This document shows positions 12,574-25,083 of a DNA stretch of 25,083 nt, in pieces (positions within the stretch are counted from its first letter, which is position 1; every line of letters starts with the position of its first letter). Origin of the DNA: a virus; the IMG/VR virus record IMGVR_UViG_3300042383_000516, positions 1-25,083 of that record, one strand, 5' to 3'. The translations under genes were made by a program, and so were the position numbers. The notes below the pieces were generated by a model. That model saw nothing but the letters and a program-made list of their open reading frames with translations, did not search any database and was not told where the DNA came from.

Positions 12574-12601
12574 AATATAGCTTTTATTTCTTATAAAGCA
12601 A
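12574..12601 (-). promoter_or_regulatory. Candidate sigma70-like promoter for gene 55
   Basis: Minus strand: TTGCTT (12601-12596), 16 bases, TATATT (12579-12574), then six bases to the GTG start at 12567. The -10 matches five of six consensus positions, the -35 only three. Spacer and distance to the start codon are identical to the candidate before the 52-residue ORF at 8915. It overlaps the end of the dehydratase gene and would separate gene 55 from the island. Confidence 0.35.
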
Positions 12602-13571
12602 ATTTATTTAACTTGTTTAGCCAATAGTCAACCATTTCTTCCATCATATCATTAAAATTAATTTTTGGTGACCAGTTAAGCTTTGTTCTTGCTTTAGTGA
12701 AATCACCTTTAAGATAATGAAGCTCTTCTGGTCTCATATATTTTTTATCTGTAAAAACATATTTTTTATAATCTAAATCAAGATAAGAAAACACCTTTTC
12801 TACCATTTCTCTTACTGTCCGCGTTTCTCCAGTAGAAATAACAAAAGATTCAGGTTTATCTGTTTGTAGCATTTTCCACATAGCTTCTACATAATCTTTT
12901 GCATGACCCCAATCTCTTTGTGCATCTAGATTTCCCAAAACTAATTTGTTAGATAAACCCAATTTAATCTTTGCAGCTTCTAATGCTACTTTATTAGTAA
13001 CAAAGTTTATTCCTCTTCGCGGAGATTCGTGATTAAAAAGTATCCCAGAGCATGCAAATAAATTATAAGACTCAGAATAATTCCTGCAAAGCGTATGTGC
13101 GTACAATTTAGCACACCCATATGGACTTACTGGGATCATTTGGGTTGTTTCTCTCTGAAAGCCATCCTCATCCTTTGAATTACCGAACATTTCAGATGTT
13201 CCCGCATGGTATATTTTCGAATGTGGGGAAAATCTTCTTACTGCTTCCAACACAGTAAGTGTGCCGTTTCCATTTACTTCCAATGTGTAATGCGGCAAAT
13301 CAAAGGATATCTGAACGTGAGATTGCGCTCCAAGATGGTATATTTCATCCGGATTACTTTTTTTTATGACACTTTGTATGCTTAAAGGATCTGTTAGATC
13401 GGCATAACATACATCAATGTGATCTTTAATATGATCTATTCTTGTAGTTTGTGATTCGGGAACAGAATTTCTTCTTATCGTTCCGTAGATTTTATAATTT
13501 TTTTCTAATAAAAATTCTGAAAGATACGAGGCATCTTGGCCATTTACACCTATTATTAGAGCTGTTTTCAT
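12591..13571 (-). CDS. gmd: GDP-mannose 4,6-dehydratase
   Basis: 326 residues, slightly short of the usual 340-370. Extended SDR with GVNGQDASYL (8-17, nucleotide binding), TSEMFG (125-130, catalytic Thr and Glu), YxxxK at 151-155 and NHESPRRG (180-187), all typical of GMD. It converts GDP-mannose to GDP-4-keto-6-deoxymannose, precursor of GDP-fucose, GDP-rhamnose or GDP-perosamine. I find no recognisable GDP-fucose synthase in the window. It is the last gene of the sugar island, 23 bases before gp55. Ribosome site weak. Confidence 0.92.
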   Translation of the reverse strand: MKTALIIGVNGQDASYLSEFLLEKNYKIYGTIRRNSVPESQTTRIDHIKDHIDVCYADLTDPLSIQSVIKKSNPDEIYHLGAQSHVQISFDLPHYTLEVNGNGTLTVLEAVRRFSPHSKIYHAGTSEMFGNSKDEDGFQRETTQMIPVSPYGCAKLYAHTLCRNYSESYNLFACSGILFNHESPRRGINFVTNKVALEAAKIKLGLSNKLVLGNLDAQRDWGHAKDYVEAMWKMLQTDKPESFVISTGETRTVREMVEKVFSYLDLDYKKYVFTDKKYMRPEELHYLKGDFTKARTKLNWSPKINFNDMMEEMVDYWLNKLNKFAL

Positions 13572-13580
13572 TTTAATATT

Positions 13581-14483
13581 TTAACCATTTTGTAAATAAT
13601 TCATCAAATCTATTTTTGGTTCCCAACCAAAAGTGTGTTTTATTTTTTCAATATTTGCTTTGGTGTCCCTACATTCCATAGGTCTTTGAGGAACATGGAC
13701 ATGAAAAGATTTATCCTCTTGTATTGCTTCAGCGATACCATTTATAGAATAATTCTTTGATGTTCCTACATTAAATACATCACCGTAAAATGTTTTATTC
13801 GAATTAGATACGATATAGTTTGCCTTTACTATATCTGTAACGTGGACAAAATCTCTTGTTTGTTGACCATCACCAACTATAGTTAGTTTGTCGCCATTTG
13901 ACTTTTGTTTTTGAAACACTCCTATTACTGGAGAATATTGTCCCTTTGTTGGGTTTCTGGGACCATAAACATTAAAATATCTCAAGCATACACTTTGAAC
14001 TCCATACATTATTCCATACATCTGACAATATTGCTCTGCATGAAATTTGCTAAGAGAATAAGGATTTAAGCAGTCTGGCTGCATGCTTTCTATTTGTTCT
14101 AAATTTTTGTTACCATAAATTGCAGAAGTACTTGATAAAATTAACTTCTTTACTGAATATTTTTTACACAAGTCTAGCATTGTTATGGTTCCACCCGTAT
14201 TGACATTAAACGCTTTACTTGGGTCTTCAATACAATTTTGTATTCTTGCTTCAGCAGCAAAATGCAAAATAACATCGGGCTTATGTCTCTTGAAGACATC
14301 AGAACACATAATAAAATCTGTTACGCTATATTTGTAGTATTTTGCCTTTTCATTAAAATAAAAAGTGTCGTGCACATCTGAAGATAGATCGTCTATAACA
14401 GCAACTTCGTGGCCGTTGTTTACTAAAAAATCTACAGCATTTGAACCGATAAAACCACAACCACCCGTAACAATATATTTCAT
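13581..14483 (-). CDS. NAD-dependent sugar-nucleotide epimerase/dehydratase
   Basis: 300 residues. Rossmann motif GGCGFIGS (7-14), ID at 30-31 for NAD preference, SSTSAIYG (117-124), YxxxK at Y142-K146, then RYFNVYGPR and QTRDFVHVTDIVKA, the features of UDP-glucose 4-epimerase and UDP-glucuronate decarboxylase relatives. The exact sugar cannot be named. ATG overlaps the stop of the upstream glycosyltransferase by four bases. Confidence 0.88.
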   Translation of the reverse strand: MKYIVTGGCGFIGSNAVDFLVNNGHEVAVIDDLSSDVHDTFYFNEKAKYYKYSVTDFIMCSDVFKRHKPDVILHFAAEARIQNCIEDPSKAFNVNTGGTITMLDLCKKYSVKKLILSSTSAIYGNKNLEQIESMQPDCLNPYSLSKFHAEQYCQMYGIMYGVQSVCLRYFNVYGPRNPTKGQYSPVIGVFQKQKSNGDKLTIVGDGQQTRDFVHVTDIVKANYIVSNSNKTFYGDVFNVGTSKNYSINGIAEAIQEDKSFHVHVPQRPMECRDTKANIEKIKHTFGWEPKIDLMNYLQNG

Positions 14484-15571
14484 AATGCAGCCTGCTCTAA
14501 TATTTTAATAATTTTATTTAAATTATTATCTATACTTAGATCATTCAAAAACCTATTTTTTGAATTGTCTGATCTAAATTTGTAATATTCACCATTTTCT
14601 TTTAATTTTTTCATTTCTTCAACATATGAATCAAGGTTATCACAGACAATACCACCATCTCCTATAGTTTCTACGTGACCCATATTTGGTGAACGGTGTG
14701 ATATAACTGGCAATCCATAAGACATTCCTTCTGCTATTGCCTGTCCATATGTCTCACCATCAGCTCGCCCGTGAGCATACACATTTAAAGTTCTTAAAAA
14801 TGAATTTAAACTTTCAACATTCGATGAGTGTTCTAAAAAATACACATTTTTTAAATTCAACGTTTTACTTTGCTGTCTGTATTTTTCTCCACCACCCATT
14901 ATAATAAAAGCCGTGTCTTCATTTTCTATCTTGCTGTATGCTTCCAGAGGAATTGAAGAAAAAATATTGTCATCATTTCTTTGGTGCATGCCGTAAACAA
15001 ATTTGGAATCTAAATTAAACAAAGCTCTCAAATTATTTCCCGAGTATGGCTTGTGTTCTGTAAATAAAAATACCACATCCGATCTAGTGGCATCTCCACC
15101 AGCACGTACCCACGATTGCTCTTGAAACTTTGAAATATGAATATACTTTTTTACATTTGATTTTGTTTCTGACATTCCTGCTAGAGTAATAAATGCAACC
15201 TCTGGTACGTCTGTTATGTGGCAGAATGGATATTCTTGATGTCCCGCTCTTGCAGATACTATTAAATCATATTTTTTTGAATTGTATATTTCCCAAAAAT
15301 TTGTATCAACCCAATCGTGTGTCGATGAATACAAATTTTTTGCTTTTACAGCAACATGTTTTAAATTAACTTTATTGTCCAACATATATTGCTTTCTATC
15401 TGGATCTGTATCTGGGTGAATCCAGTTTGAACCAATATATGGGGCGCTATCAGTGTAAAGATAATCTACTTCAAATTTATCTTTAGGCAAATTAGCTAAA
15501 ATAGTTTGAAACCATTTTTCTGTTCCACCAGCTGCCAGCCCACCGAATTTAATTGCTGCTATTTTTATCAT
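14480..15571 (-). CDS. Glycosyltransferase, GT4 type (GT-B fold)
   Basis: 363 residues. An N-terminal FGGLAAGGTEKW segment resembles GT4 acceptor-side loops, and the C-terminal half has GRADGETYGQAIAEGMSYG with the E-x7-E pair (E273, E281) and later SHRSPNMGHVETIGDGG, diagnostic of GT4 retaining enzymes. Donor and acceptor unknown. Overlaps both neighbours by four bases (ATGA), so it is translated as part of a chain. Confidence 0.85.
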   Translation of the reverse strand: MIKIAAIKFGGLAAGGTEKWFQTILANLPKDKFEVDYLYTDSAPYIGSNWIHPDTDPDRKQYMLDNKVNLKHVAVKAKNLYSSTHDWVDTNFWEIYNSKKYDLIVSARAGHQEYPFCHITDVPEVAFITLAGMSETKSNVKKYIHISKFQEQSWVRAGGDATRSDVVFLFTEHKPYSGNNLRALFNLDSKFVYGMHQRNDDNIFSSIPLEAYSKIENEDTAFIIMGGGEKYRQQSKTLNLKNVYFLEHSSNVESLNSFLRTLNVYAHGRADGETYGQAIAEGMSYGLPVISHRSPNMGHVETIGDGGIVCDNLDSYVEEMKKLKENGEYYKFRSDNSKNRFLNDLSIDNNLNKIIKILEQAAL

Positions 15572-16179
15572 ATTACTTTTTTAAATATTAAATCTTGTTG
15601 TAAAAGTTTTCCACCCCATATCAGATTATCTAATACACCGTCAACGACAAAACCAATTGAGTTTAGGTAGTCTACAACCTCTTGCTGTTTTGGCGCACCT
15701 ATATTATACCCCGAAACATCAGTTTCAGCCACAATAAGTCTAATATTTTCTAGAGTCTTTGAAGCTCCCTTTAAAATATCCAATTCACTTCCCTGTGTAT
15801 CGATTTTTAAAAAATCAAATTTGATATTTGGTTGTTGTGTTTGTAGCAGTTCATCAAGAGTTATTGTATCGACTTCTTCACAAATTATTTTATCATCAGA
15901 ATAGTGTTTTGTGTTTTCTCTATAAAGAGAATTTCCGGTACATATTAAATTTTCTTTTGTTTTATAAAAAATTTTTTTATCTTTTTTTTCTGATAAACAA
16001 GCAATAGTTGAATTTGGATTTTTTTGTTTTAATAAAAATTCACAATCTTTATTTGCTTCAACACTAAAAACATATACATCAGGTTTTGCCGACTTGATCA
16101 AATCAACATACTCTCCTATAAATGCACCTATATCCAAAACACAATTTATATTATAATTGTATAAGTAATTTTTTAACAT
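15568..16179 (-). CDS. FkbM-family methyltransferase
   Basis: 203 residues. SAM-binding motif VLDIGAFIGEY (14-24), acidic loop VEANKD (40-45), and the family signature FLKIDTQGSELDILKGA (123-139). FkbM enzymes O-methylate sugars or hydroxyls. One of two FkbM genes in this island; the two differ strongly and are not a recent duplication. Very AT-rich, no clear ribosome site; overlaps the next gene by four bases. Confidence 0.88.
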   Translation of the reverse strand: MLKNYLYNYNINCVLDIGAFIGEYVDLIKSAKPDVYVFSVEANKDCEFLLKQKNPNSTIACLSEKKDKKIFYKTKENLICTGNSLYRENTKHYSDDKIICEEVDTITLDELLQTQQPNIKFDFLKIDTQGSELDILKGASKTLENIRLIVAETDVSGYNIGAPKQQEVVDYLNSIGFVVDGVLDNLIWGGKLLQQDLIFKKVI

Positions 16180-16180
16180 A

Positions 16181-17083
16181 TTATTTTAAAAATTTATTTC
16201 TTAACTGTGGAATATGCCAAATATGAAGATCTTTAAAATATTCTACTCCATATTGATCAAACATTTTATAGATTGATGGGAGCAAATCATTTCTTAAAAA
16301 ATATTTTTCATCCCATGTTTCATCATAGTTGGGGATATTTGGGACAGGTATTCCATAAATCCAGTCTTCTGGAATTTCTCTTAACCCAACATTTTCATCC
16401 ATCATAGTAATACTATATGTTGAATTGATGCTATTTGCATGTTCTTTACCTCTGGCCACCAGCTCACAGCATTTATACCAACACTGTTTTAATTGAAATG
16501 TATTCCAAACTGAAAACTGATAATGCAAAACGCCACCATATTGTAATGGCAAAGTGACCCAAGAGCCATTGTTGTGTCCCGGTGTTCTGCCTACAGTGTG
16601 AGACGAAATACCATCCCAAGAATAAGACAATTCAGGAGAATCACAAACAATAAAATCTTTCCAATTATTACTCCACGGGGTATTATCTTCTCTATATTGT
16701 TTATAACTTTTCCATAGCGCCAGCCACTGCATAGCCAGTTTTTGTCCCGGCTTTAAGCTAGATATTATATTTTTAGCATTTATTAAAAAATTAGTTGTAA
16801 ATGTTTCGTCCGCATCAAGCATAATAAAATGCGTTCCACCAGCTTCTCTGCCTTTTTGTAATAAAATGTCTCTATGCGTTTTTGAAACACTCCATTCTTT
16901 TGGTTTTAATTCTTTTTCCAGTTGGTAAACAGTAACACCAGAATTTTTTAAAATTTCTGATGAGTTGTCTGTAGAATTATCATCAAGAGCTATTATTTCG
17001 TCACTAATAGGTTTAACGTTTGATAAAAACGTAGGCAGTATCCAAGATTCATTTTTAAAAGGCAAAAGTGTTATTATTTTCAT
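16181..17083 (-). CDS. Glycosyltransferase, GT2 type
   Basis: 300 residues. LPFKNESWILPTFL, then DDNSTDNSSEI (34-44), then MLDADETF (88-95) are the GT2 nucleotide-binding loop and DXD. The remainder is aromatic-rich (WLALWKSYKQY, LHYQFSVWNTFQLKQCWYKC), as in GT2 enzymes acting on phage- or capsule-type glycans. Start overlaps the upstream GT2 stop by four bases. Confidence 0.85.
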   Translation of the reverse strand: MKIITLLPFKNESWILPTFLSNVKPISDEIIALDDNSTDNSSEILKNSGVTVYQLEKELKPKEWSVSKTHRDILLQKGREAGGTHFIMLDADETFTTNFLINAKNIISSLKPGQKLAMQWLALWKSYKQYREDNTPWSNNWKDFIVCDSPELSYSWDGISSHTVGRTPGHNNGSWVTLPLQYGGVLHYQFSVWNTFQLKQCWYKCCELVARGKEHANSINSTYSITMMDENVGLREIPEDWIYGIPVPNIPNYDETWDEKYFLRNDLLPSIYKMFDQYGVEYFKDLHIWHIPQLRNKFLK

Positions 17084-17856
17084 TTTAAATATTTTCCCAC
17101 ACTAATAGCTGTACCATTATTATGTATATGTCCTATATCATATTTTTTTGCATCATCAATGTATGATGGCTCCAATACATTAAGACCGTATCTAAGTTCT
17201 ATTACAGTTCTTTCTAAAGGCTGTTTACTATTTGGGCGTGTGCTGGCTCCCATACCTTCATTTAAATAAAAGCCAAGTATATGTGGTATGTGCTTTCCCT
17301 TTCCATTAAAAGCCAACCTAAGAGCCAAATCAAAATCTGCACCGGAAACTAACTGCTCATCAAACAGCCCGCATTTTTTTATTGCAGACTTTCTAAACAT
17401 AAAAAATGGACCGAGCACCATTCCCTTTGTTAATAAATTTTCTTTTCCTGTTTCGTCAACCAAGTATCCATATTGACTTCCAAAAGAAGAAACTACCAAA
17501 TAGTTTCCATAACAAAAATCTACATCTGGATTGTCATCTAATGTTTTTGCCATTAATTCTATGGAATATGGTGTTCTTAAATCATCTACATTCCAGATAC
17601 AAAGATATTCACCTTTAGATTCATTTATACACCTATTCATCGAAACACCGATTGGATCAACTTTGTCAACGACAATGTGATTTATATTGCTGTATTTAAA
17701 CGATTTAACCAGATCAATTTCTTCTTTTGCTGGCTCATTATGATCCAATACAACTTCTATATCATTAAATGATGTTTGCTTTGGTAGATCATTTAAAAAA
17801 GTTTTTAAATATTTTCCCATTCTATAGCAGGGTGTAATGGTGCTTACTTTACACAT
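17080..17856 (-). CDS. Glycosyltransferase, GT2 type (WcaA-like)
   Basis: 258 residues. STITPCYRMGKYLKTFLNDL, CINESKGEYLCIWNVDD (76-92, with the DXD-equivalent VDD) and RKSAIKKCGLFDEQLVSGADFDLALRLA are classic GT2 motifs (acceptor-side loop ED/GADFD). It overlaps the upstream epimerase by eight bases. Distinct in sequence from the other GT2 genes in the window, so not a local duplicate. Confidence 0.87.
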   Translation of the reverse strand: MCKVSTITPCYRMGKYLKTFLNDLPKQTSFNDIEVVLDHNEPAKEEIDLVKSFKYSNINHIVVDKVDPIGVSMNRCINESKGEYLCIWNVDDLRTPYSIELMAKTLDDNPDVDFCYGNYLVVSSFGSQYGYLVDETGKENLLTKGMVLGPFFMFRKSAIKKCGLFDEQLVSGADFDLALRLAFNGKGKHIPHILGFYLNEGMGASTRPNSKQPLERTVIELRYGLNVLEPSYIDDAKKYDIGHIHNNGTAISVGKYLK

Positions 17857-18676
17857 TTTTATAATACTTTATTATTTCTTGGATTCCGGTATCCAACGAT
17901 GTTTTTGGAGACCAATATTTTAAAATATTTTTATTTGGATCATTTTTTAAATTTTTTTGAACATCATCTGAATTGTTGCTGGGTACAATTTCACATGGAA
18001 TATATTTTGATATTATTTTAGCAATATCAATAACTTTTGTCCATTCAAAATTAGAAACATGATACTCGTCTTTTCTATCGATATCGTTATAAATTTGTGA
18101 AAGCTTTAACAGACATTCACAACAATCTTCTGCAAAAAGAAATTGTCGTTCTTCGACCCCGTCTGTAATCATATCTATTTTTTTTGTTTTAATAGCTTTT
18201 TGTATAAAATCAGTGATTACGTGAGATTTTTCAAAATCTTTTTCTATACCATACACATTCCAAAATCTTGTATTTAATCCACCTAAAGACTTTGTATAGT
18301 ATTCACCAATTTTTTTTAATGTTCCGTATGATGAATAATCCATAGCAGACATTTGTGATGAGGCGAATATAAATGGTTTTTTATATTTTTTAAGCGATGT
18401 AAAAGTTACATCCATTATTTTTGAATTGTTGTTAATAAATTCAAACGTATTTTGATATTGTTTTAAATATCTTGAGCCACCTACATCAAAAGCTAAGAAA
18501 TATACAAAATCACTATTTTTAATTTTTAAATCAAGCAATTCATTATTTTGAATTCTTAAATCTTCTTTTTCAGAATTTACTATATCAAACCCATCTACTT
18601 GGTAACCTTTTTGTTTTAAGTAATTAAATAAATGAGAACCAATTTGTCCTTTTGAACCTAATATTAAATATTTCAT
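17849..18676 (-). CDS. NAD-dependent epimerase/reductase (RmlD/epimerase family)
   Basis: 275 residues. GSKGQIGSH (7-15) is a Rossmann motif, ASSQMSAMDYSSYGTLKKIGE contains the YxxxK pair (Y117, K121), followed by RFWNVYGIEKDF and ERQFLFAEDCCECL. GSKGQIGSHLFNYL resembles the start of RmlD-type 4-keto-reductases, so it might reduce the product of the dehydratase at 12591, but the body reads more like an epimerase; the substrate is unresolved. Overlaps both neighbours. Confidence 0.8.
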   Translation of the reverse strand: MKYLILGSKGQIGSHLFNYLKQKGYQVDGFDIVNSEKEDLRIQNNELLDLKIKNSDFVYFLAFDVGGSRYLKQYQNTFEFINNNSKIMDVTFTSLKKYKKPFIFASSQMSAMDYSSYGTLKKIGEYYTKSLGGLNTRFWNVYGIEKDFEKSHVITDFIQKAIKTKKIDMITDGVEERQFLFAEDCCECLLKLSQIYNDIDRKDEYHVSNFEWTKVIDIAKIISKYIPCEIVPSNNSDDVQKNLKNDPNKNILKYWSPKTSLDTGIQEIIKYYKNV

Positions 18677-19302
18677 TTTGTTTGCTTTGAATAAAATGCG
18701 TCTCCCCAGCCATATTCTGTTGGAGCGGTAAATAGTCTACTAAAGCCATATTGACTTAAAAATTCATCCAATTTGTCTGCCAAAACACAGTTTTCATACA
18801 AATGTTCAAAATTAATTTCAGTCATAATGTGATCTATTGACTTTAATGTTTCTACACTTCCTTTTAATGCCTCAAGCTCGTATCCCTGAATGTCCATGTT
18901 TATGAAGTTGTAAACATTTAAATCTATGCCTTTAGACATTACATATTCATCTAAAGAAATTTGATTTATTTGTTTTTCTGATTCAAACTTGATATGTGGA
19001 TAATACTCCAAATGTTTTTGTGGTTTTAAAAGTGAACAAGACATCGCTTGATTGGCAGTTTCGCAATATAAAGTCTTTGTTGTGCTTTCCGGACCTACAG
19101 CTACATTTTCTAAAATAACATCTTCTGCATTATCAAATTTATATGTTAAAATTTTATATGAGTCTGGATGAGGTTCAAAAAGAATTGAAGGAACCTTTAG
19201 TGCTCTGTATACAGCAACTTCTTGTCCGTGATGTGCACCAATATGCAAAACACCTTTTATATTAAAACCACTATTAACAATTTCAAATAAGTTCATCAAC
19301 AT
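18673..19302 (-). CDS. FkbM-family methyltransferase
   Basis: 209 residues from the ATG at 19302, which has AAAGGA about seven bases upstream. GVLHIGAHHGQEV (17-29) is the SAM motif, FEPHPDS the acidic loop, and NMDIQGYELEALKGS (135-149) the FkbM signature. Probably methylates a sugar hydroxyl of the glycan built by this island. Its start lies inside the end of the upstream glycosyltransferase (20-base overlap). Confidence 0.88.
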   Translation of the reverse strand: MLMNLFEIVNSGFNIKGVLHIGAHHGQEVAVYRALKVPSILFEPHPDSYKILTYKFDNAEDVILENVAVGPESTTKTLYCETANQAMSCSLLKPQKHLEYYPHIKFESEKQINQISLDEYVMSKGIDLNVYNFINMDIQGYELEALKGSVETLKSIDHIMTEINFEHLYENCVLADKLDEFLSQYGFSRLFTAPTEYGWGDAFYSKQTK

Positions 19303-20122
19303 AAATTTTTCCTTTGATCAGTTCGACATAACTAAATGCTTGTTTCTTAAGATTTAAATTATCCAATATATATTTTCTAGGATTATATTTAAATATATTG
19401 TTATAAAACAATTCAAATTTATTTGAATCATGTTCTACAATACCACAGTTTTCATCAAAATATGGAACTGATGATGCTGGAACATCTATTCCATAATCAT
19501 CCCACACTGGTTTATTTATCACATAACAGGGAACTCCCATAGATAGGATTTCCTGATATGCTATTCCTTGGGATTCTGTTTTTGTTAAAAGAATTGCGCA
19601 TTTAGATGCATTTACATTAAATATAAATTCATCTTCATTGTATTGACCATACACTAATACAGTATAAGTCAACCCAAGTTGTTTTAAAAAGTTTTCTACA
19701 TGTGGTAATTTGTCTTTTGTATTTTTACAATAAATTAAAACATCATATTTTTTTGTTTGATTCAAATCACAAAACTTTTCAGTATCTATTCCTACTGGCC
19801 ATATGTGCATGGATTTATTTTTTGTTATTTCAAAAAGACTATAAAAATCATAAACCCATTGACATGGAACATTAAAACTATTATATCTTTTCCATACCTC
19901 AGCTGCTTCTGTTGGCAATACTGAAATATTTGGACCAATAAATGAATTCAAAGGTGCGTTGTAGATATTTTTACAATTAAGTTGCAATATACCATTATAT
20001 TCACATATTTCATTTGGTACAACTTCTATATTTAAAGAGTGAAGTCCTTTAATTAAATTTTGTGCAACTTTACCGGGACCATTGTTGTTTGCTGTAGTAC
20101 TATAATGTAATCCAATTTTCAT
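19283..20122 (-). CDS. Glycosyltransferase, GT4-like
   Basis: 279 residues from the ATG at 20122, which forms a four-base ATGA overlap with the fucosyltransferase stop; an upstream in-frame GTG at 20134 is less likely. GLHYSTTANNNGPGKVAQNLIKGL at the N-terminus and LTKTESQGIAYQEILSMGVP, with the E-x7-E pair (E183, E191), give a GT-B retaining transferase. It is shorter than usual GT4 enzymes (about 350), with a reduced C-terminal helix. Substrate unknown. Confidence 0.8.
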   Translation of the reverse strand: MKIGLHYSTTANNNGPGKVAQNLIKGLHSLNIEVVPNEICEYNGILQLNCKNIYNAPLNSFIGPNISVLPTEAAEVWKRYNSFNVPCQWVYDFYSLFEITKNKSMHIWPVGIDTEKFCDLNQTKKYDVLIYCKNTKDKLPHVENFLKQLGLTYTVLVYGQYNEDEFIFNVNASKCAILLTKTESQGIAYQEILSMGVPCYVINKPVWDDYGIDVPASSVPYFDENCGIVEHDSNKFELFYNNIFKYNPRKYILDNLNLKKQAFSYVELIKGKIYVDELI

Positions 20123-20907
20123 ACTACAATCCACCTCTCACAATATATGTCTCTCCAGTCCTTTGGCATTCCTTCACCGGAACCAAACCACCGTGCTGGT
20201 GCAATGGTCTTCTTACTTTCAGAAAGCCAAGCCCCCCACCAGCTAAAAGAACTATTTGCAATAATATGATAATCACACAAAGACATTAAACACATATCAA
20301 TGTATTTATCAGTATTATCAGGGATAACCATTTTTTTATTTAACTTTGAAAACAGTTCTTCTGCTTTCTTTGGTTCATCACTAAAAACAAACAGCACCAT
20401 ATCGTCTGGTAGAAGACTTAAAGCCTCGGTGTAATATTCTTCAGAACAGACTGGATGATTGTGTTGTTGGCCGACATAATCTCCTAGACGCAAATGAATT
20501 GATATTACTGGTTCTCTTGTCAAAGACCTAATATCTCGGGCCTTGTCATAAATTTCTTGTTTAAAAGAAAATTGTTTTAACAAATCATTTCTATAATCTT
20601 TAAAATACTTTTCAGTTTGAAAATAACCAATGATGTCAGAGTGATCTGGTATTCCAAATAAACCCGGATTATATCCAAATTTTGGTTCTGCAATTCTGTA
20701 TTTTACTGGATGACCGGAAGATTCCTCGGCTTGAAGCTTGTCGAAAGCTTCATCCAAACAAAAATGCTCATATTCATTCTCAGATTTATTCTTATAAGGT
20801 ATACCATAACGATATTTCGCTGTTCTTGCTATACCATATAAGGCAGCATATTGGAACATCTGATTTCCAAACCTACCATATCGTCCTATATTTGAAAATG
20901 TTATCAT
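20119..20907 (-). CDS. Alpha-1,2-fucosyltransferase-like protein, GT11 family
   Basis: 262 residues. GRFGNQMFQYA (11-21), ISIHLRLGDY (135-144, the HxR-G-D donor-binding motif), FVFSDEP (173-179) and SSFSWWGAWLS (219-229) are the four conserved blocks of GT11. The family uses GDP-fucose, which fits the GDP-mannose dehydratase at 12591. Base composition is less AT-rich than its island neighbours. Fucose in alpha-1,2 linkage is the family norm; donor specificity here is inferred. Confidence 0.9.
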   Translation of the reverse strand: MITFSNIGRYGRFGNQMFQYAALYGIARTAKYRYGIPYKNKSENEYEHFCLDEAFDKLQAEESSGHPVKYRIAEPKFGYNPGLFGIPDHSDIIGYFQTEKYFKDYRNDLLKQFSFKQEIYDKARDIRSLTREPVISIHLRLGDYVGQQHNHPVCSEEYYTEALSLLPDDMVLFVFSDEPKKAEELFSKLNKKMVIPDNTDKYIDMCLMSLCDYHIIANSSFSWWGAWLSESKKTIAPARWFGSGEGMPKDWRDIYCERWIVV

Positions 20908-20908
20908 A

Positions 20909-21526
20909 TTATTCTATTGGTGTATTTGTCCAAACTTTGTTTCTTGAACAATTTTGATAAAAAAAGTGTTTTGGGGTTGCAAAAACATTGTATTCATTTT
21001 GTAGTTTTGCATAAACTACGTCACAATGTCTGTTACCAGTTGGGTCCGTCAGATACTTTAAAGCCCCATCTGCGCAAGCTTGTTTATATTTTTTTGAAAT
21101 ATAAATTATGGCGTGTGCAGATGTGACATTTCCTATTTTGTAATATTCTTTAATTTTAACAAATGTAGATGGACCCGACAATAAACTCATCTGTGCTCTG
21201 ATTGGATGTGCTGCCCAATTACTATATCCCAAATACAAAGCATCCATGTCCGTAATATCAGATAAATCTATCGTATTTTTGTAAAACTCTGTTTCCTGTA
21301 TATCGTCTTCTACGATCAAAACTGGGTTGTCATCCATATTCTCCTTTAAAACATTAATTTGAGACATGGCACAACCTTCTATGTGATCGGAAGAAATTAT
21401 TCCATCGTAAAATGACCAATTTTTAAAATTTAAACGGTTTGCCATTTGTTCAAAATTACTTCTTCTTTCAATAGAAGATTTTAAACTTATACAAACTATT
21501 TTTAAATTCTGAAAATCAATCAGCAT
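20909..21526 (-). CDS. Glycosyltransferase, GT25 (LPS beta-galactosyltransferase) family
   Basis: 205 residues. IVCISLKSSIERRSNF is the characteristic GT25 N-terminus, PVLIVEDDI (68-76) the conserved EDD metal-binding motif, and SAHAIIYISKKYKQA the later block. GT25 members transfer galactose in lipo-oligosaccharide synthesis. Starts within the end of the GT32 gene (11-base overlap) with no obvious ribosome site, so probably coupled. Confidence 0.85.
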   Translation of the reverse strand: MLIDFQNLKIVCISLKSSIERRSNFEQMANRLNFKNWSFYDGIISSDHIEGCAMSQINVLKENMDDNPVLIVEDDIQETEFYKNTIDLSDITDMDALYLGYSNWAAHPIRAQMSLLSGPSTFVKIKEYYKIGNVTSAHAIIYISKKYKQACADGALKYLTDPTGNRHCDVVYAKLQNEYNVFATPKHFFYQNCSRNKVWTNTPIE

Positions 21527-22157
21527 AGTTAAAAGGACTCTGGGGAGTACTTCCCCAAAGTTGCGTACAATAAGGCTTAAATGCTCCAGTATATTCTAAA
21601 CCAGTATAATGTCTTGGTATAAAATATTGACTTGGATATATTGAAATATTGTTGTAATGGGTTTCATGAATTGTTTTAGTCAAAAATACCGGACCTACAG
21701 TTTTCCATGCTGTAAGATTTCCTTCCCACAGACTAAACCCATCAAGATTGTGTAATCTTTCAACCAAAGAGTTTATTAAAGGGTTGTTTGGTGTTGTTGC
21801 TAGATAGCCAGCTGCAACCAAGTTCCCACGAAGCCATTCATTTTCGTAACAACTGAATGCATCATTTTCCAAAAGATAATCATCTAATGATCTTAATGCA
21901 GTACAATCTGCATCAAGAAAAAATCCTCCAAATTTTTGGAGAATTTCATAACGGGCAATATCACATTTGCCATTCCATTCTGGCATGGCATCATATTGTG
22001 ATTGATTATAAAGTCCATTTGGAAATTGTTCCTTCAAAGTTGACTCATTCCAAAACATATGAGTCCATGAAGGATTTTTATCTTTCCAAGTTTGTATTTG
22101 TTCTAAAGGCGGCTTCTTTGGTCCTACCCACAGTTGGTGTAAAATTTTTGGAATCAT
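21516..22157 (-). CDS. Glycosyltransferase, GT32 type (DXD sugar-binding)
   Basis: 213 residues. IPKILHQLWVGPKKPP at the N-terminus and KCDIARYEILQKFGGFFLDAD (64-84, the DXD at D82/D84) are diagnostic of the Gly_transf_sug/GT32 family, which includes Och1-like mannosyltransferases and capsular galactosyl- and mannosyltransferases. It is the first gene of the island and follows a strong sigma70-like promoter by 14 bases, with GAG as a weak ribosome site in a very short leader. Confidence 0.88.
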   Translation of the reverse strand: MIPKILHQLWVGPKKPPLEQIQTWKDKNPSWTHMFWNESTLKEQFPNGLYNQSQYDAMPEWNGKCDIARYEILQKFGGFFLDADCTALRSLDDYLLENDAFSCYENEWLRGNLVAAGYLATTPNNPLINSLVERLHNLDGFSLWEGNLTAWKTVGPVFLTKTIHETHYNNISIYPSQYFIPRHYTGLEYTGAFKPYCTQLWGSTPQSPFNYAD

Positions 22158-22249: not shown

Positions 22250-22687
22250 ATGAATCTAGAGAACCTTAAAGAACTTATTACTAAAGACTCTCAAATAGAC
22301 TCTACAGAGTTAGGAATAGAGTCTCTTAAGATACCTCAAATACACGGAAAGTATCTTAATATTTTGACAGATCTTAAATTACTTTTGGCAAAACAGCAAA
22401 GTGATTTTGCTGTCATGAAACTTCGTAAGTGGAAAATTTACACCGGTAAAGCTTCTCAAGAAGAACTCCAGCATTGGAATGAAGATCCATTTGATTTGGA
22501 TATTCTTAAAACTGATGTAGATAAATTTATGGAAGCTGATCCAAAATTGATTGAGCTTAAAGCAAAGATTTCAGTCAATGAAGTAAAAGTAAAGATGGTT
22601 GAAGAATTTTTGAAAGCACTCAATAATAGAAACTTTGCCATAAAGTCGGCAATCGACTGGCAAAAAATGATGAATGGTATCGTATAA
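22250..22687 (+). CDS. uvsY: Recombination mediator UvsY
   Basis: 145 residues (T4 UvsY 137). MNLENLKELITKDSQIDSTELGIES aligns with T4 MRLEDLQEELKKDVFIDSTKLQYEA, and the C-terminal RNFAIKSAIDWQKMMNGI with RGFAIKHIQDMRAFEAG. UvsY hexamers load UvsX recombinase onto gp32-coated single strands. The homology begins at the first residue, so the ATG at 22250 is right despite having no good ribosome site and only about six bases of leader from the perfect promoter. Followed by uvsW after seven bases. Confidence 0.92.
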   Translation: MNLENLKELITKDSQIDSTELGIESLKIPQIHGKYLNILTDLKLLLAKQQSDFAVMKLRKWKIYTGKASQEELQHWNEDPFDLDILKTDVDKFMEADPKLIELKAKISVNEVKVKMVEEFLKALNNRNFAIKSAIDWQKMMNGIV

Positions 22688-22694: not shown

Positions 22695-24191
22695 GTGGAT
22701 ATAGATGTTGAATCTATTGATGAAGTAAGATACTATGTAAAGACTGAAAAGGGACTAAAACAAGAATTGAGAGATTACTTCTCATTCATGGTCCCCGGTG
22801 CCCAATACATGCCTATGTTTAAACGGAGGCTGTGGGACGGAAAAATTCGTCTATACGATATTCTTTCATCCACTCTTCCAAGAGGTTTGAAAACATATCT
22901 TGAAAAATTTTGCAATGATCGTGGATACAGTTTAAACGTAAAGGAGAGCAAAAACCCACTATGCGTAACAGAGGCCCAACTTATGGCTTTTTACGAATCC
23001 TTGAAGGTTTCCGTGCGCAAACAGGCTGTGCAGATGCACGACCACCAGAAACAGGGTATTTTGCATGCATTGAACAACCATCGTTCGGTCTTGATCTCTC
23101 CGACTGGCTCAGGCAAAAGTCTTATTATATACGTCTTGGTTCGGTTTCTTCAAAAGGTATTACCTACAGATCGCAAAATATTAATTTTGGTTCCAACAGT
23201 AGGTCTCGTAAATCAGATGGAATCTGATTTTTTTGATTATTCAAGTCAAGACAAATCTTGGTCCTGCAAAAAATACATACACAAAATCTCTGCTGGCGTA
23301 GATAAAGAAACCGATAAACAGATAGTCATATCAACTTGGCAGTCAATATACAAGTTACCAAAACAGTGGTTTGATAAATTTGACGCAATCTTTTTTGATG
23401 AATGTCATCAAGCAAAAGCGGAATCGATAAACTTTATCGGTCAAAAACTTTCAAAGGCTTGGTTTAGAATTGGGACCACTGGTACATTACAACAGACACA
23501 AGCACACAGATTAAGCATAGAAGGAATACTGGGTCCAGCTGTCCAGTTTATTCATACAAAAAACTTGATGAATAAGGGGCTATTAGCAAAACTTGGTATA
23601 GATTGCATTTTGCTTAAATATACAGAACAAGAAAAACAATTACTTAAAAAGCAAAAATACGTCGATGAAATAAAGTGGATCGTAGATAATGAAAAAAGAA
23701 ACGAATTCATCAAAGAACTCGCACTCCGCACCAAAGGGAATACCCTTATCCTCTTTAATTATGTCGAAGCGCACGGGAAGCCCCTTGCCGCTCTCTTGGA
23801 AGCAGCGGGAACGAATAGAAAAGTATATCTCATTCACGGAAAAACAGAAGCAGACGCAAGAGAATATATCCGCCGGGTTATCGACAAAGAAAAAGACGCG
23901 ATCCTTGTTGCCTCCTATGGCACTACCTCTGCTGGTATCAATATTGTTAATCTCGACAATATTATCTTTGCTTCACCTACTAAATCAGTAATAAGACTTT
24001 TGCAAAGCATCGGTCGTGGGCTTCGTGTTTCCGAGAAAAAGAAAACACTTAAAGTCTATGACATTGTTGACGATCTTTCTTGGAAAGCTCACAAAAATCA
24101 CGTGCTTAGACATTTTGAAGAACGTGTTAAAATATACAATAAAGAAAAATTTGATTACAAGATATGTTCAATGTCATTCGACAGCCTTTGA
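22695..24191 (+). CDS. uvsW: Recombination DNA/RNA helicase UvsW
   Basis: 498 residues, T4 UvsW about 503. Superfamily 2 helicase: Walker A SPTGSGKS at 135-142, DECH box at 235-238, motif III GTTGTL (260-265), motif V/VI SAGINIVNLDNIIF and QSIGRGLR (437-444). The N-terminal LRDYFSFMVPGAQYMPMF...WDGKIRLYD matches T4 UvsW LRDFFSFEADGYRFNPRF...WDGRIRLLD. UvsW unwinds R-loops and branched recombination intermediates, and in T4 shifts replication from origin- to recombination-dependent mode. Start is GTG at 22695; an in-frame TGA directly before it excludes anything longer. Patches of higher GC occur, notably near 23700-23900. Confidence 0.95.
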   Translation: MDIDVESIDEVRYYVKTEKGLKQELRDYFSFMVPGAQYMPMFKRRLWDGKIRLYDILSSTLPRGLKTYLEKFCNDRGYSLNVKESKNPLCVTEAQLMAFYESLKVSVRKQAVQMHDHQKQGILHALNNHRSVLISPTGSGKSLIIYVLVRFLQKVLPTDRKILILVPTVGLVNQMESDFFDYSSQDKSWSCKKYIHKISAGVDKETDKQIVISTWQSIYKLPKQWFDKFDAIFFDECHQAKAESINFIGQKLSKAWFRIGTTGTLQQTQAHRLSIEGILGPAVQFIHTKNLMNKGLLAKLGIDCILLKYTEQEKQLLKKQKYVDEIKWIVDNEKRNEFIKELALRTKGNTLILFNYVEAHGKPLAALLEAAGTNRKVYLIHGKTEADAREYIRRVIDKEKDAILVASYGTTSAGINIVNLDNIIFASPTKSVIRLLQSIGRGLRVSEKKKTLKVYDIVDDLSWKAHKNHVLRHFEERVKIYNKEKFDYKICSMSFDSL

Positions 24192-24193
24192 AA

Positions 24194-24201
24194 GATAAAT
24201 A
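24194..24201 (+). promoter_or_regulatory. Late promoter GATAAATA of the LSm-like gene
   Basis: GATAAATA differs from the T4 late element at one position. Predicted start near 24207 gives a leader of about 17 bases holding a strong purine-rich ribosome site (AAGGAAGGGAGG at 24204-24215) before ATG 24224. Best-placed late promoter in the window. Confidence 0.6.
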
Positions 24202-24223
24202 GTAAGGAAGGGAGGACATCACT

Positions 24224-24889
24224 ATGTCCGATTCACTTCCTGAGAATGAATTCTCAGGCGCGTTGCGAGTAGTTAAGTTGACTTCTGGGGAAGAATTGAT
24301 TGGAATGGTTAGCGAAGCAGCGCCTGATAAAATCACTATTAAACTACCAGCTCTTTTGGAAAATTATTATACAAAAGATCAAACTGGGCAGACTGTAGAA
24401 TATGTAAAACTAACAAACTATTTACTGAACATTAGAGGGTATGAAGTTAATCTACCCAGATCCGTAATAGTTTATATTGGATTGCCTGCAATAGAATTAG
24501 AAAAAATGTATGAAGTTTATTTTATGGCAATGCAGACTGATCCGAAATCAATTGTAAGTTCTTCTCCCGATGCACCCCACGGCGTAGAAAATGGATTAGA
24601 ACTTTTAAACGAACTTTTTAATAATGAAGATTTTGTAAATTTTGTTAATGATATGATAGAAAGTTTTGAAGGGGTTGAAATTTTGGAAGATGCTGAAGGG
24701 GATGAAGAATGGGATGATGTCGTTGCAGAATCGCCTATAAGCCCTTCTGTAGAAGAAGAGCCCGAGCCTGCACCCAAGCGAAAGAAACGCAAGGTGATGA
24801 AGCCTGAAACGAATAAGCTGCCTTATAAACCGGATGCCAACCCGAACACCGCAGAGGGCTGGTCAGACAACCCCCTAGATTACATTTAA
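24224..24889 (+). CDS. Sm/LSm-like protein with acidic and basic tail
   Basis: 221 residues. Residues 14-45 (LRVVKLTSGEELIGMVSEAAPDKITIKLP) follow the Sm1 pattern: a strand, G-E-x-hydrophobic-x-G-x-V, a turn, and a strand of alternating hydrophobics. A similar small Sm-like protein is, as I recall, widespread in marine T4-like phages. The middle (about 120-160) is acidic helix, then comes a low-complexity acidic stretch, a basic cluster (KRKKRKVMK, about 185-193) and a Pro/Asn-rich tail. It may bind RNA, but this is inferred from the fold pattern. It has its own late-type promoter and strong ribosome site, and ends in a 4-base overlap with a convergent gene. Confidence 0.7.
   Translation: MSDSLPENEFSGALRVVKLTSGEELIGMVSEAAPDKITIKLPALLENYYTKDQTGQTVEYVKLTNYLLNIRGYEVNLPRSVIVYIGLPAIELEKMYEVYFMAMQTDPKSIVSSSPDAPHGVENGLELLNELFNNEDFVNFVNDMIESFEGVEILEDAEGDEEWDDVVAESPISPSVEEEPEPAPKRKKRKVMKPETNKLPYKPDANPNTAEGWSDNPLDYI
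24239..24258 (+). promoter_or_regulatory. Hairpin at codons 6-12 of the LSm-like gene
   Basis: CCTGAGAA, loop TGAA, TTCTCAGG: an 8-bp perfect stem with a four-base loop, 15 bases after the A of the start codon. In RNA it would be stable and lie close to an initiating ribosome. Confidence 0.6.
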
Positions 24890-25083
24890 ACTTGATTTTT
24901 TAAATTTGACGGAACTGGATCTTCTTGATTTCCGGTCCACAGATCAAAATATGAATATTTAAATGTGCATGTGGTTTTTTGAATTATTGCATCTGAGCTA
25001 TCTGCTTGAAAATTTAAACCATTTAATTTTACCGGGATGATGTAATTAAACTTTGCTCTCAAAATTTCACAGTTTGTGGCAGG
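24886..25083 (-). CDS. C-terminal end of a probable tail/baseplate protein (5' end outside window)
   Basis: A minus-strand frame is open from the right edge to TAA at 24886 (65 residues seen). The stretch ending FKYSYFDLWTGNQEDP, preceded by AKFNYIIPVKLNGLNF, has alternating hydrophobic strands like tail-tube or baseplate tube-associated T4 proteins (gp48/gp54/gp19 type). T4 places baseplate genes near uvsY-uvsW, which fits. The exact gene cannot be named from this fragment. It converges on the LSm-like gene, sharing four bases, with no terminator between. Confidence 0.6.
   Translation of the reverse strand, partial: PATNCEILRAKFNYIIPVKLNGLNFQADSSDAIIQKTTCTFKYSYFDLWTGNQEDPVPSNLKNQV

Follow-up and report, generated by a model that had tools for sequence, protein, structure and literature searches.

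A conserved hairpin at the start codon of a late gene for a predicted Sm-fold protein in a T4-like phage

The gene for a predicted Sm-fold protein in a T4-like phage starts inside a perfect 6-bp hairpin, H1 (24214-24229, + strand), whose arms at 24214-24219 (GGACAT) and 24224-24229 (ATGTCC) enclose a CACT loop and pair the 3′ part of the Shine-Dalgarno (SD) sequence with the start codon. The 3′ arm reads AUG UCC, and the 5′ arm is non-coding. In phage T4, the SD and/or AUG of genes e, soc, 49 and I-TevI lie within a helix and are sequestered by RNA structure (PMC3014915), as is predicted here. By analogy, H1 may act in cis as a brake on translation initiation of this late gene, a reading to which we assign a probability of roughly 50%. 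The stretch analyzed (the window) is an entire virus record of 25,083 bases, and the gene is an ORF of 221 aa with an ATG start (24224-24889, + strand) that the sequence-only reading had correctly delimited.

Eighty loci with homologues, nearly all full length, were kept from IMG/VR; they are mostly metagenomic fragments, and neither tblastn in cultured phages nor a scan of genome_contigs gave close relatives. Within the window's branch, 33 of the 35 distinct leaders found by their protein carry H1 (loci fetched by the hairpin DNA pattern being excluded), compared with none of the 11 sister-branch leaders, and the hairpin is kept in a member with only 44% protein identity (L132). In alignment A2, which comprises 46 distinct leaders and includes pattern-fetched loci, H1 is intact in 45 and 99.6% of cells are paired, while its loop, counted on the same basis, takes 31 sequences of 3-4 nt. 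The codon for Ser2 is TCC in 50 out of 50 cases (TCC usage is 12%). In one relative's contig, about 1.2% of the ATG triplets have a hairpin of this kind, and a search for the exact pattern in five incomplete records located H1 once in each of the three partial contigs containing it, only at the Sm-like gene. The pairs of H1 hardly vary and show no covariation in A2, so the case is built on three features: conservation of the non-coding arm, variation in the loop, and how rarely ATGs have such a hairpin. The conservation of H1 through one large branch suggests a translation control built into the leader. SD-AUG spacing could itself limit the length of the loop. In eight leaders (L012, L023, L024, L026, L029, L079, L085 and L256) the loop sequence gives rise to an additional in-frame ATG, six bases 5′ of the usual start (GGACATGNNATGTCC or similar).

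Among the points that speak against a brake, the sister branch does without H1, and there is no covariation to support pairing over a linear motif. Arms that are invariant without covarying also fit the view that it is the linear sequence of GGAGGACAU and of the first codons that is conserved, with complementarity being secondary. Such a signal could serve ribosome binding, be recognized by a protein on RNA or DNA, or protect the 5′ end of the mRNA. The start codons of uvsW are nearly as frozen, and the H1 sequence is also a DNA dyad. However, it is uncommon (about 1% of ATGs) for six bases to be complementary across a loop that varies freely, and a rigid DNA operator would resist a loop length that varies between 3 and 4. 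We regard a purely linear signal as unlikely.

Taken alone, H1 has a folding energy of −5.5 kcal/mol and a pair probability of 0.74-1.0. In a relative's 137-kb contig, the energy needed to open the ribosome-binding site of the Sm-like gene ranked 2nd among 96 called genes (16.1 vs a mean of 5.3 kcal/mol), and it was the highest among the six late-box-matching genes of this contig. The gene call used there begins at an in-frame ATG located six bases before the usual start, and some called genes are possibly spurious. Opening costs were above the mean of a recoded null in all 27 leaders tested, sister branch included, yet single leaders were not extreme, with 2-38% of nulls being as high. The RNAalifold consensus adds a possible lower part to the sequestering helix (GGGA/UUCCU, 24210-24213 with 24238-24241, + strand), for which pairings in the window alone are split among alternatives with probabilities of about 0.2-0.4. 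An Rfam search returned nothing credible, with snoR137 (E 0.07) falling below its gathering score.

The sequence-only reading had placed a late promoter and a very strong ribosome site ahead of the gene, and both were borne out. The box GATAAATA (24194-24201, + strand) fits the cyanophage late box, known as NATAAATA from S-PM2 (PMC2984593), and it is kept upstream of homologues: an ATAAATA box recurs in front of those that we read. Within the window, the motif count is not above chance. From the geometry of T4 late promoters (PMC2988020), we predict a late transcript start at 24206-24208 (+ strand), about one helical turn past the box and about 17 nt before the AUG. The SD, GGGAGGA (24210-24216, + strand), is strong, and GGAGGA is invariant in the 46 leaders. 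The starts of uvsY (22250) and uvsW (22695), in contrast, have no recognisable SD.

A late box directly upstream brings to mind the switch of T4 gene e: the start site would be hidden in transcripts reading through from uvsW, and translation would come from late transcripts devoid of the 5′ arm. An SD and AUG held in a helix, as such a switch requires, are predicted here too. But while the late transcript of gene e loses its 5′ arm, the arm of H1 lies after the predicted late start and would be kept, and in the window's branch the two transcripts differ in opening cost by only about 1 kcal/mol. The sister branch offers more, with 11.1 kcal/mol for read-through against 7.0 kcal/mol for late transcripts, and some of its leaders have, 5′ of the box, an arm able to base-pair with the SD (in L047, AGCAACCUUCC with GGAGGGCUGCU). 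Still, shuffling the upstream sequence leaves nearly the same cost (9.6 kcal/mol; in the median leader, 13% of shuffles reach the observed value), so this 5′ arm is only a lead, and we hold a switch of this type to be very unlikely. In sister-branch leaders L047, L052, L055 and L059, the SD GGAGGG has a possible pairing partner, CCUUCC, 5′ of the late box, which would place the promoter in the loop as in T4 gene e.

Besides H1, which the sequence-only reading had missed, the leader contains the hairpin that it did report: a perfect 8-bp stem found exactly where it had been placed (24239-24246 with 24251-24258, + strand; loop TGAA, CCTGAGAATGAATTCTCAGG). H1 is far better conserved, and the 24239-24258 stem is the lesser hairpin. 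Its own energy is −9.8 kcal/mol, but the folding energy of the 24190-24320 region is only modest (z −1.3), and hence energy alone does not single it out. Across the 46 leaders, 87.8% of its cells are paired. As for the covariation proposed as a check, the E7-F10 wobble pair occurs as GC, GU and AU, a compensatory GC/AU change that reached p=0.028 (uncorrected) in a tree test of correlated change, while the other testable pair, P6-S11, gave no significant signal on the tree; two pairs having been tested, the support from E7-F10 is borderline. Selection on the stem beyond codon constraint likewise left some sign, which is weak once relatedness is corrected for, and which part of the family lacks. 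Overall, support for this stem is modest. Synonymous conservation at codons 2-8 (0.83 in the Sm-like gene) is much alike in uvsW (0.79) and uvsY (0.71), so frozen early codons prove nothing alone and we rejected them as evidence of structure. We also discarded a bistable switch between this stem and the lower helix: the two share bases, but their pair probabilities are split, and we found no support for switching.

The genetic neighborhood is that of a T4-like phage. The window, a fragment of such a genome, encodes a late sigma factor, a sliding clamp, a clamp loader, a RegA-like translation repressor, uvsY and uvsW. The Sm-like gene lies downstream of a uvsW-like helicase gene (22695-24191, + strand; phrog_16, E 2e-91), which follows a gene for a uvsY-like recombination mediator (22250-22687, + strand; phrog_231, E 6e-40). 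On its other side is the 3′ end of a convergent gene cut by the end of the window (24886-25083, − strand), probably for the tail tube, as its translation (...SNLKNQV) resembles the C-terminal end of the phrog_45 tail tube protein encoded at L350:14886-15413. A long run of genes on the − strand (12591-22157), with translations resembling glycosyltransferases, sugar epimerases and methyltransferases, lies between the sigma factor gene and uvsY.

This position is shared with known phages. The PHROG 471 profile matches 52 of 52 aligned homologues (best E 2e-11; 1.5e-5 for the window protein), and PHROG 527 likewise matches all 52. PHROG 471 proteins of P-TIM40 (PTIM40_144), S-WAM1 (P090810_126) and Melnitz-3 (_213) have a domain related by profile and sit in the identical slot after uvsY-uvsW, ahead of the late sigma factor in P-TIM40, S-WAM1 and Melnitz. 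The window gene fills this slot of the Kyanoviridae, and the best explanation is that it is the counterpart of the small Sm-like gene adjoining uvsW in that family. The two are not identical in build: the Kyanoviridae proteins have 131-140 aa and no long conserved C-terminus, whereas the window protein adds an extension of ~110 residues; in P-TIM40 and Melnitz the gene overlaps the end of uvsW, whereas the window gene has a late box of its own; and a strong SD with a start-codon hairpin, both present in the window gene, was not seen in those Kyanoviridae genes. The label of PHROG 471, 'methylamine utilization', is probably wrong, and on the cyanophage and Melnitz proteins (L356:4945-5367, L357:4955-5350 and L358:5014-5409) it probably hides Sm-like proteins. 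We know of no established role for Sm-like genes adjoining uvsW in T4-like phages.

An Sm fold for the window protein is well supported as a prediction, since Foldseek and profile searches both put the same structure, 3BY7, first. The AlphaFold monomer model, built from alignment A1, shows the five-stranded bent sheet of the Sm/LSm superfamily over residues 14-105 (24263-24538, + strand), with a pLDDT of about 84-94 over most of the domain. With this N-terminal domain, Foldseek ranked 3BY7 at the top (E 3e-6, TM (target) 0.86), followed mostly by spliceosomal Sm/LSm chains, with archaeal Sm proteins lower; among viral models, its matches include cyanophage proteins already named Sm-like. In the profile-sequence search 3BY7 was also best, at a marginal E of 0.024. 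3BY7 is an Sm/LSm-like chain of 100 residues from a marine metagenome, with 22-26% identity to the window protein and without its C-terminal extension. It is said to have been described by Das and colleagues in 2009 as a homopentamer of putative cyanophage origin. The fold had thus been read correctly from the sequence, but the epithet 'Hfq-like' was not upheld: the window protein had no match in Pfam or NCBIfam, even with E-values up to 10 allowed, LSM and Hfq models were absent among the Pfam hits of 52 family members, and no Hfq appears in the list of the 50 best fold matches from the PDB.

Past the Sm domain, residues 121-148 (GLELLNELFNNEDFVNFVND...; 24584-24667, + strand) form a conserved pair of AlphaFold helices with residues invariant in A1. 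The remaining tail (24668-24886, + strand) is mostly disordered (pLDDT below 50 at 151-183 and 188-197) and is acidic, then basic. Its highly conserved tip, WSDNPxDYI (24857-24886), includes W213, D215, P217 and Y220, all invariant in A1. The tip resembles the acidic tips by which single-strand binding proteins recruit partners.

A predicted Sm fold raises the question of autogenous control, in which the protein or its ring would bind the leader (the purine-rich SD, H1 or the second stem) and repress its own late translation. T4 genes 32 and 43 are under such control (PMC3014915), and an exact H1 occurring once per contig, only at the Sm-like gene in three partial contigs, is as would be found for a gene-specific operator. 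Yet loops this variable offer few bases by which a protein could recognize them specifically, the protein persists in the sister branch without H1, and searches against Hfq and LSM models gave no sequence match. We consider autogenous control unlikely. The bolder form of this idea, in which a widespread phage Sm-like protein holds the start-codon hairpin closed to repress its own late translation, as a phage counterpart of Hfq-type post-transcriptional control, appears to us quite improbable.

For H1 as a cis-acting brake, we infer the transcript start, the formation of the hairpin in the cell and its effect on translation as follows. A late transcript starting about 17 nt before the AUG would fold at once into H1, hiding the AUG together with the 3′ half of the SD. 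The 24239-24258 hairpin would come next, and it shares bases with the possible lower part of the H1 helix. The strong SD would let ribosomes compete for the hidden site, and output would be limited; it would become conditional if some factor held H1 closed or open.

Several T4-like phages that infect marine bacteria have an Sm-like gene adjoining uvsW, which goes under a misleading label ('methylamine utilization'). A branch in which such a gene has its own late promoter and a conserved hairpin at its start site offers a testable handle on which RNA the protein meets and on whether its synthesis is limited.
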